From Acidobacteriota bacterium (lineage in GTDB: Bacteria > Acidobacteriota > UBA6911), in contig JAFGAO010000128.1 of assembly GCA_016933615.1 (NCBI GenBank), positions 1 to 45,729 of the forward strand: DNA of 45,729 nt. The letters are read 5' to 3'. The notes beneath the pieces are model-generated. The model was given only the letters and a program-made list of their open reading frames with translations. It had not been told where the DNA came from and ran no database searches. Position numbers and translations under genes: made by a program. Shown piece after piece: positions 30,296 to 33,760 of the stretch. Numbering within the stretch: position 1 is the stretch's first letter; each line of letters begins with the position of its first letter.

Positions 30296-31600
30296 TTATT
30301 GCCCGGCCGTTACCGTTTGTTTGGGGCGGAACGGTTTGAGCAGATGATCTTCCTGCGTCGGCTTATGCTTCATTTTCTCGACGCATCTGGGCGCCGTTTC
30401 CACATAGAAAAGCGACAGGACGGCTATGAAAACGCCGGCGAGAGCGGCCATCCACATGGGAGCGTAAAGGTTGAACATATCGCTCAACATGCCGGCAATC
30501 GTCGGCATGAGGGCGGCGCCCAGAGTCTCTCCGATGCCGGTGGGTATCGCGACCGCCGTTCCCGAGATCCTGGGGGGGACGGATTCCGCCGGGAGCGTGG
30601 ACAGGTACATGGGATACATGCCGCCCCCGAAGAAGCCGTAGAAAAAGAAAAGAACACAGAAGGTAACCGTGGAAGTTCCTATCGCCATCACGGCGATCGT
30701 GATCCCGACGCCCGAGCAGAGAAGGGCCGTGAGGATGAGGGCCTTTTTGCGTCCGATCATGTCGGATACGGAGCCCAAAATCGATTCGCCCAGGAAGCCG
30801 CCCAGGCCGGCGGTGGCGATGACGACGGTGTAATTCCAGGGATTGAATCCATGCACCTCGAAGAGAAAGGAGGATGAAAAGGTGGTGAATATGTAAAGCC
30901 ATCCCATTACGGGGACGCTGTTGATGGAGGAAACCAGCACATTTTTGTATTTCAGGGCGTCCCAGACCTTTACCCGGTCCGCTTCGGCTTTTTCCACCTT
31001 TCGCCCCTCCTTTCGCAACCGGATGGCTTCGGCGACGGAAGGGGCTTCGCGCATCATGAATGCCAGGAGGATGCCGACCAGGATGGCGGGGATGGACACC
31101 ACATAGAATACGGGACGCCAGGATCCGAATTCTTCCACGAGCCAGCCGGCGGCCACCGAACCGACACAGATGCCGATAAGCATGAAGGAACCGGTAACCA
31201 GTCCGGCATTGAGCGCCCTTCGATGCGGCGGCGCTTCTTCCGATATCGTACCCATCGAAAGGGGGTAGGGGCCTCCTTCAAAAAAACCGAGGAATCCGCG
31301 CACCGCTATCAGCTGGCCCACATTGTGGACAAATCCGGTTATCCAGGAAAAGACTCCCGAAAGGATGGTGCACAGGACGATGATCGGACGGCGGCCATAG
31401 CGGTCCCCGATGGTTGCGAAGATGATGGTGCCCAAAGCCCAGGTCAATCCCGTGATCGCGACAATCATACCCTGTTGGGTGTATGAAAAACCCAGATCGG
31501 CCTTGATCGTGGGCATGATAACGGCGATGACGACCCGCTGAATCCCGATGAAGCCGAACATCAAGCAGAACAAGAGCGTAAGTTTCTGATAATACTTCAT
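30296..31600 (-). CDS. MFS transporter
   Basis: 12-TM pattern; TIGDRYGRRPIIVLC, FFEGGPYPLSMGTISEEAP, SVSDMIGRKKALIL. Confidence 0.92.
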   Translation of the reverse strand: MKYYQKLTLLFCLMFGFIGIQRVVIAVIMPTIKADLGFSYTQQGMIVAITGLTWALGTIIFATIGDRYGRRPIIVLCTILSGVFSWITGFVHNVGQLIAVRGFLGFFEGGPYPLSMGTISEEAPPHRRALNAGLVTGSFMLIGICVGSVAAGWLVEEFGSWRPVFYVVSIPAILVGILLAFMMREAPSVAEAIRLRKEGRKVEKAEADRVKVWDALKYKNVLVSSINSVPVMGWLYIFTTFSSSFLFEVHGFNPWNYTVVIATAGLGGFLGESILGSVSDMIGRKKALILTALLCSGVGITIAVMAIGTSTVTFCVLFFFYGFFGGGMYPMYLSTLPAESVPPRISGTAVAIPTGIGETLGAALMPTIAGMLSDMFNLYAPMWMAALAGVFIAVLSLFYVETAPRCVEKMKHKPTQEDHLLKPFRPKQTVTAGQ

Positions 31601-31937: not shown

Positions 31938-33440
31938 ATGTCGACGGCATTGGTGATAGCGATCGCTTATTTTCTCATCCTGAGTATCGGCGTGAGCTTC
32001 TGGCTTAAAAGGAAGGTGAAATCGGGCGCCGATTTTGTAACCGGAAGCGGGTCGTTGTCCTGGCCCCTGGTTGCGGCATGCTTTGTTCTTGCCCCCCTGG
32101 GGAGCGGACACACGCTTTCGCTCTGGGAGGGCTCGGCCGGTATGGGCGCATCCGTACTATGGTGGGGCATGATGTCCGGCGGGGTGTTCGTTCCTCTCTT
32201 TTTGCTCTGGTTCGGTCCCTGGTTCCGGCGGCTGAATGTACAGACTTTCCCCGAAGGCATGGGGAAGATGTTCGGGGCGAGGATCGGATGGCTCATATCG
32301 GCCGTCTTCCCGGCGCAACTGATCGGCATCTGCATTGCGGAGGTCATGGCAACGGCCACGGCGCTGTTCGCCCTGAGCGGCGGCAGCCGGGGTCCGTTGG
32401 ATATGTTCCCGGACTGCATTCTGCTGGCCGTGATCCTCACGATTCTCTATATCATTGCCGCCGGCCTCATGCAGGTGGCATGGATGAACCTGGTCAATGC
32501 AATAATGTTGATCGCGGGTTCTTTCATCGCCGTATTCTTCACCGGCTCCTGGCTTTCCGATCGCGGGGGGTGGCAGTATGTATCGGATTTTTACGCCGAT
32601 GCCGGCACGGCATGGAAAACGAGCATTCTGAATTTTTCCCCCGACATTATTTTCACCCTTATATTCCCCTGCCTGATCCTCACTCTGTTCATGCAGAGCG
32701 CATCCCAGGCGCAAAACCAGCCCATGCTGGCGGCCAGGAGCGAATCGGACGTCCGGCGCGGCGTGTTCTGGGCATCTTTCGTCAACAGCCTGGCGGCCTA
32801 TCCCTGGGTCATCCTGGCCCTGGTCGGCATGTCTATCCCGGCCATTGCGGTCGGCGGCGCCAAACTTGCCGTGCCCGGGCTGGCCCTGGAGGCTTTCCCG
32901 GGCTGGCTTGTAGGTCTTTTGATGATATCGCTTCTCTCGGCGACCCTTTCCACCACCGCCATCCTGATTCTGGCCGCATCCCATATAATGGTAAACGACA
33001 TCTTCAAAGGGGTCCTAAATCCTAAAATGAAAGATAAAACCTTTTTGGCGCTTACCAGGATGATGATTTTCATCTGTACGATCCTGGTCATCATTCCCGC
33101 GCTGAGAGACCCTGAAATCCTGCCGCTGCTGTACTGGATCTTCTCCTTTGCAATCCCTGTTTTCGGCGTTTATTTGATCGGGATGCTTTGGAAGGTAAAC
33201 AAGATAGCGGCCTGGACCACCATCCTGGCGGGGTACGCCGCTGCGTTCGTGTGGACGTTTGCAGCGCCCCACTGGCTGCCCGATTATTTGAGCCTTAACG
33301 TTTATCCCACAACATTCGCCACCCTGTTTTTCGGTATCGTTCTGAACCTCATCCTGCCCGGCAAGCCCGGCTACCTGCGTCAGATGAAGCGAGCCACGGA
33401 AAGAACGGATGCCGGTGCGGCGGCGGCAACGACCCACTGA
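31938..33440 (+). CDS. Sodium:solute symporter (SSS) family transporter
   Basis: Multi-TM; LKRKVKSGADFVTGSGSLSWPLVAACFVLAPLGSGHTLSLWEGSAGMG, LLMISLLSATLSTTAILILAASHIMVNDIF. Confidence 0.88.
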   Translation: MSTALVIAIAYFLILSIGVSFWLKRKVKSGADFVTGSGSLSWPLVAACFVLAPLGSGHTLSLWEGSAGMGASVLWWGMMSGGVFVPLFLLWFGPWFRRLNVQTFPEGMGKMFGARIGWLISAVFPAQLIGICIAEVMATATALFALSGGSRGPLDMFPDCILLAVILTILYIIAAGLMQVAWMNLVNAIMLIAGSFIAVFFTGSWLSDRGGWQYVSDFYADAGTAWKTSILNFSPDIIFTLIFPCLILTLFMQSASQAQNQPMLAARSESDVRRGVFWASFVNSLAAYPWVILALVGMSIPAIAVGGAKLAVPGLALEAFPGWLVGLLMISLLSATLSTTAILILAASHIMVNDIFKGVLNPKMKDKTFLALTRMMIFICTILVIIPALRDPEILPLLYWIFSFAIPVFGVYLIGMLWKVNKIAAWTTILAGYAAAFVWTFAAPHWLPDYLSLNVYPTTFATLFFGIVLNLILPGKPGYLRQMKRATERTDAGAAAATTH

Positions 33441-33457
33441 TACAAGGAGGACTGGAA

Positions 33458-33565
33458 ATGGCATGGCCATGGAAAATTCTAATATTTCAGATATGCGTGA
33501 CCCTGGGACTGGCGCTGGTGTTTTATATTATTTGGAGATGGACCCATCCCGGTAAAAAATGGTAG
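33458..33565 (+). CDS. Small membrane protein (35 aa), candidate symporter accessory protein
   Basis: Manual translation MAWPWKILIFQICVTLGLALVFYIIWRWTHPGKKW*; RBS aaggagg; 17 nt after the SSS stop. Absent from the ORF track. Confidence 0.75.
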   Translation: MAWPWKILIFQICVTLGLALVFYIIWRWTHPGKKW

Positions 33566-33592
33566 GGAGTCGAAAGAAAGGGGGATACGTAT

Positions 33593-33760
33593 ATGCCGGT
33601 ACTGGATTCTGCAATCGCCTATTATTTATTCGGCATTATGGTGGTTCTGGCTCTCATAATCATCATAGGAGCAAGCCGGCGGAAGGCAGATGAGCCGACT
33701 TCTCAGAAATCTTCTTCTGCCTCGAGGGAAGGCGCTTCGGCGGCGAAAAAAGTGGAATGA
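33593..33760 (+). CDS. Small single-TM protein (55 aa), candidate symporter accessory protein
   Basis: Manual translation MPVLDSAIAYYLFGIMVVLALIIIIGASRRKADEPTSQKSSSASREGASAAKKVE*; purine-rich aaagaaaggggg upstream. Absent from the ORF track. Confidence 0.72.
   Translation: MPVLDSAIAYYLFGIMVVLALIIIIGASRRKADEPTSQKSSSASREGASAAKKVE

Follow-up and report, generated by a model that had tools for sequence, protein, structure and literature searches.

Do two very short open reading frames (ORFs) lying directly behind a symporter gene encode proteins, and might those proteins be partners of the symporter? The window (i.e., the whole stretch of DNA analyzed, 45,729 nucleotides [nt]) is one contig of a 3.6-Mb draft genome, and it carries an SSF-family symporter gene followed by ORF1 and ORF2 (Table 1). 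A sequence-only reading had placed two mini-proteins here, each with one hydrophobic segment and a purine-rich ribosome-binding site. Its coordinates, sequences, and spacings were confirmed: ORF1 begins 17 nt after the symporter stop codon, and ORF2 begins 27 nt after that of ORF1. Each encoded product contains a single hydrophobic segment (highest mean KD over 19 residues, 2.6 for ORF1 and 2.8 for ORF2), and each ORF is preceded by a Shine-Dalgarno (SD)-like site. Because the downstream neighbor of ORF2 is a metallophosphoesterase gene on the opposite strand, the unit ends with ORF1 and ORF2.

TABLE 1 Positions of the trio and its SD-like sites in the window
Feature	Position	Strand	Start and stop codons	Evidence
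SSF-family symporter, 500 aa, ~13 predicted TM helices	31938..33440	+	stop 33438-33440	PF00474, TIGR00813, subfamily alignment
SD-like AAGGAGG of ORF1, 7 nt 5' of its ATG	33444..33450	+		sequence; equivalent purine-rich site in relatives
ORF1, 35-aa single-TM mini-protein	33458..33565	+	ATG 33458; stop 33563-33565	34-35 aa in 17/17 loci; dN/dS ~0.1; one match per genome, adjoining symporter
SD-like AAAGGGGGA of ORF2	33577..33585	+		sequence; equivalent site in relatives
ORF2, 55-aa single-TM mini-protein	33593..33760	+	ATG 33593; stop 33758-33760	33-55 aa in 17/17 loci; core dN/dS ~0.18

The conserved part of ORF2 comprises its first ~37 residues, and the C-terminal tail is particular to the window's genome. 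This tail is hydrophilic and ~20 residues long (33695-33757); most relatives have none, and one (G008) has a shorter one. Residue 13 of ORF2 is F in the window and Cys in most relatives of the genus. A divergently oriented MFS transporter gene lies 5' of the symporter gene, both in the window (30296-31600, minus strand) and at the closest related locus (L034; 917-2221, minus strand). The two MFS transporters have similar N termini, and such a gene was not evident at the other loci.

Distribution of the trio

Conservation of the two frames behind orthologous symporters, on which the sequence-only reading had staked its claim, was observed throughout: both mini-ORFs follow all 17 copies of the symporter subfamily (16 genomes), in the same order and on the same strand. 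The copies derive from 10 of 10 genomes of the window's genus, a second genus (four copies), and three genomes of a third class; the sampling covered two phyla, and most of the genomes are drafts. A whole-genome search identified symporter relatives at 71 to 77% identity in each of the nine other congeneric genomes, with both mini-ORFs located 3' of the symporter gene, whereas no symporter relative reached an E value of ≤1e-30 in the 50 further genomes covered by the search. The second genus, which belongs to another class of the same phylum, was reached with the ORF1 profile; the symporter of the genome first reached is 45% identical and those of the genus as a whole are 42 to 46% identical, and both mini-proteins are present. 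A search with the subfamily profile, covering 396 genomes per phylum in the two phyla, yielded one further copy, again with both mini-ORFs.

In a scan of named genomes, relatives were detected in metagenome-assembled genomes labeled Acidobacteria or Acidobacteriota and in two labeled Deltaproteobacteria (a label taken from the record names), and these two carry both mini-ORFs. In the symporter tree, in which some deep nodes are weakly supported, the Deltaproteobacteria-labeled copies formed one clade inside the window's Acidobacteria genus. This nesting suggests that the whole trio passed between phyla together, likely by lateral transfer.

The three genomes of the third class (L041, L043, and L091; two with records named Deltaproteobacteria) carry the trio at symporter identities of 68 to 71%. 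Among the relatives found in the second genus, one genome (G337) carries two diverged whole trios (L071 and L072), whose symporters are 80% and 55% identical to that of a related genome.

Coding potential of the mini-ORFs

Over the 17 copies, the length of ORF1 was nearly fixed (34 to 35 aa) and that of ORF2 ranged from 33 to 55 aa, whereas the spacers varied from 0 to 54 nt (symporter to ORF1) and from 13 to 171 nt (ORF1 to ORF2). Mean pairwise amino acid identity in the true frame was 0.745 for ORF1 and 0.606 for ORF2, compared with only 0.42 to 0.44 and 0.33 to 0.36, respectively, in the other two frames. Variable columns at codon positions 1, 2, and 3 numbered 19, 10, and 30 of 35 for ORF1 (P = 9e-6) and 22, 20, and 30 of 32 for ORF2 (P = 0.009), with P values that ignore the relatedness of the sequences. 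Median NG86 dN/dS values were 0.15/1.45 for ORF1 and 0.22/1.22 for ORF2. The median pairwise dN/dS ratios were ~0.1 (ORF1) and ~0.18 (ORF2 core), with many dS values near or beyond saturation, and nearly every copy has a purine-rich SD-like site ahead of each ORF. The codon-substitution analysis that had been proposed as a check thus pointed to purifying selection on both frames (median dN/dS, ~0.1 for ORF1 and ~0.2 for ORF2). Judging from the frame-specific identity, the third-position variation, the low dN/dS ratios, the SD-like sites, and the fixed length of ORF1 between variable spacers, ORF1 and ORF2 are protein-coding genes under purifying selection.

Linkage to the symporter

The ORF1 profile gave one strong match per genome, or two in the genome with two symporters, and each match adjoined the symporter gene; no convincing ORF1 copy without a symporter was found in the genomes searched with the profile. 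Within the class, ORF2 profile matches likewise occurred only beside the symporter. The genes flanking the trio vary from locus to locus, and the trio itself stays together. On this comparative evidence, both mini-proteins are strictly linked to the symporter subfamily, having been inherited and apparently transferred with it. The earlier suggestion of small transmembrane (TM) partners of the symporter therefore holds at the level of gene linkage, from which we infer a physical partnership. Weak ORF1 profile matches elsewhere (E values of 0.005 to 0.04) were short or interrupted by stop codons, and the two inspected (L065 and L068) held no mini-protein pair.

A transcript ending after ORF2 would fit the hairpins that lie 3' of this ORF: strong ones in the second genus and in one relative (G004), and one with a T run in another genome (G364). 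The window has only a weak hairpin at this position.

Features of the symporter

The symporter scored 70.7 bits against PF00474 (cutoff, 22.8 bits), which places it in the SSF family, and 83 bits against TIGR00813, below the cutoff of that model. It aligned with vSGLT over most of its length (E value of 1.5e-19). A Ser/Thr pair in TM8 (S338/T339), which we take to be Na2-site residues, does not vary among 16 sequences and lines up with the VSS motif of vSGLT; because this pair is retained, the symporter is probably Na+ coupled. An AlphaFold model built from 11 sequences, with a low-confidence mean pLDDT of 50, was used, cautiously, only for the helix count. By this model, the symporter seems to lack the last helix of its SGLT-type relatives, a hydrophilic tail following soon after the helix at ~455 to 472. 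A plasmid search with a relative's symporter returned only a 26%-identical haloarchaeal protein.

Proposed role of the mini-proteins

The topology of both mini-proteins is most likely N-out/C-in, given the positive charge at the C-terminal flank of each hydrophobic stretch. In each mini-protein, the conserved residues cluster on one side of the helix, as expected for helices packing against a partner: T15, A19, Y23, and W26/R27 in ORF1 (moment P = 0.013) and Y11/L12, I15, L19, and G26 in ORF2 (moment P = 0.028), both P values being modest. We propose that the symporter, ORF1, and ORF2 would be expressed as one unit on one mRNA. Each mini-protein would insert as a single helix with one face packed against the outside of the symporter, and both together would serve as obligate accessory subunits, required either for stable assembly of the symporter or for its full activity in transport. 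Linkage, selection, the conserved helix faces, the apparently missing last helix, and the precedent of MAP17 all argue for this assignment. We therefore consider it fairly likely that the two are obligate single-pass accessory subunits of the MAP17/SGLT2 kind, with binding, stoichiometry, topology, and transport effect all inferred. Counting against it, PutP and similar relatives are not known to need such partners. A more specific version, which we put forward only tentatively and hold to be rather unlikely, is a three-part symporter: a main protein of only ~13 helices, without the C-terminal TM13 of SGLT-type relatives, in which two unrelated single helices complete the TM13/MAP17 side and neither suffices alone. 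Simple replacement of the SGLT TM13 by one mini-protein was retained only as part of this tentative version, since the N-out/C-in orientation predicted from charge for both would be the opposite of that of TM13 in SGLT proteins. An origin of ORF1 and ORF2 by recent duplication of one mini-protein was not supported, as a profile comparison found no relation between them.

The main rival to accessory subunits is a regulatory role: like MgtR or MgtS, the mini-proteins would either inhibit the symporter or hand it over to a protease (FtsH, for example). Many membrane proteins of 28 to 49 aa regulate transporters in this way (PMC10710835), and the linkage and selection would fit equally well. However, regulators of this type are, as a rule, expressed separately and only under certain conditions; the position of both mini-ORFs as the last genes of the symporter's unit in every lineage fits fixed subunits better, and we judge regulation unlikely, though worth weighing. 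Short hydrophobic proteins with other functions are common, so the pair might instead belong to a separate pathway (toxin-like or stress peptides) and merely share the mRNA. This appears very improbable, since in both phyla the pair accompanies one symporter subfamily without exception even though other neighbors change, and since the PADLOC search produced no match. That the ORFs arose by chance in a 3' untranslated region can practically be dismissed: although short ORFs abound (97 ORFs of ≥30 aa lie within or extend into one 9-kb stretch of the window), the frame-specific conservation, dN/dS ratios well below 1, SD-like sites, and presence in 17 of 17 copies contradict it, as does the fixed length of ORF1 while the spacers vary.

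A different question is whether ORF2 is a very distant member of NF045580, the NCBIfam "symporter small accessory protein" family (33 aa), which would leave ORF1 alone as new. Members of this family are likewise single-TM mini-proteins beside an SSF symporter, and ORF2 shows a faint register resemblance to them, with a similar AY-L-C...G register (hhalign P = 0.011 over 19 columns, 37% identity) that gives at most a faint hint of remote kinship (hhalign probability of 3.9%). The model (35-bit cutoff) gave 74 bits for a probe sequence of the family, and it matched neither mini-protein, nor any of 14 relatives of each, at an E value of ≤10. Moreover, no member of the family occurs in 247 genomes of the phylum, and the only one retrieved for inspection (L075) stands alone, upstream of a different symporter type, whereas the mini-ORFs described here lie downstream in 17 of 17 copies. 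We regard membership of ORF2 in NF045580 as improbable.

Comparison with known small partners

Pfam, NCBIfam, PHROGs, PADLOC, and PDB yielded no convincing match to either mini-protein, which bears out the impression that the pair is unusual in sequence, and within the literature collection searched, no publication described two mini-proteins of this type accompanying a symporter. Weak matches to SCIMP, GldI, an Rz-like spanin, cytomegalovirus (CMV) UL148C, an LPXTG anchor, and others (E values of 0.003 or worse) were scattered over one or two members each, as is typical of TM composition. In the window's own genome (L003; contig C125, minus strand), a PanF/PutP-like SSF symporter gene is immediately preceded by a different ORF, MFGLPLSTTLVAFGIPVLIAAALVWRGLRGSKKSSRDTRNEEDSPL, which encodes a 46-aa single-TM protein and stops where the symporter gene begins; it had no NCBIfam match and may represent another uncatalogued symporter mini-protein.

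Small membrane proteins encoded beside SSF symporters include YhdT, which accompanies PanF, and the DUF4212 small subunit. A DUF3311 protein is encoded beside the SSF symporter MctP (PMC9100948). The mini-proteins share this gene context with YhdT, DUF3311, and DUF4212 proteins, all of which are larger, and neither matches the Pfam and NCBIfam models for YhdT (DUF997), DUF3311, DUF485, DUF4212, and MetS. The sequence-only reading had cited known small partners as precedent, and small transporter helpers are indeed an established kind (PMC10710835); the searches gave no sign of kinship to YhdT. The small regulators AcrZ, MgtS, MgtR/MgtU, and MntS (28 to 49 aa) also act on membrane transporters (PMC10710835). 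They differ in that they serve other transporter classes, which they regulate or stabilize, and do not form a fixed tandem pair behind a transporter gene.

The nearest functional parallel is human SGLT2, whose subunit MAP17 (PDZK1IP1) has one TM helix, attaches to TM13, and is required for transport (PMC10803289). The mini-protein profiles gave no sequence match to MAP17 when searched against PDB, which holds the SGLT2-MAP17 complex. Like the mini-proteins, MAP17 is a single-TM partner of an SSF/SLC5-family transporter; it differs in being one partner rather than two, larger, encoded elsewhere, and eukaryotic. Strictly linked, co-inherited genes, as would be expected of accessory subunits of this kind, were found here in 17 of 17 copies. 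Small transporter subunits are already known; on the sequence comparisons made here, what is new is a conserved tandem pair from two new families. The pair represents two uncatalogued mini-protein families whose partner is clear, and it illustrates that annotation relying on known families overlooks conserved transporter components. The action of single-pass helper helices on SSF/SLC5 transporters has otherwise been studied mainly in the human SGLT2-MAP17 complex, and the trio may serve as a compact natural system for testing it.
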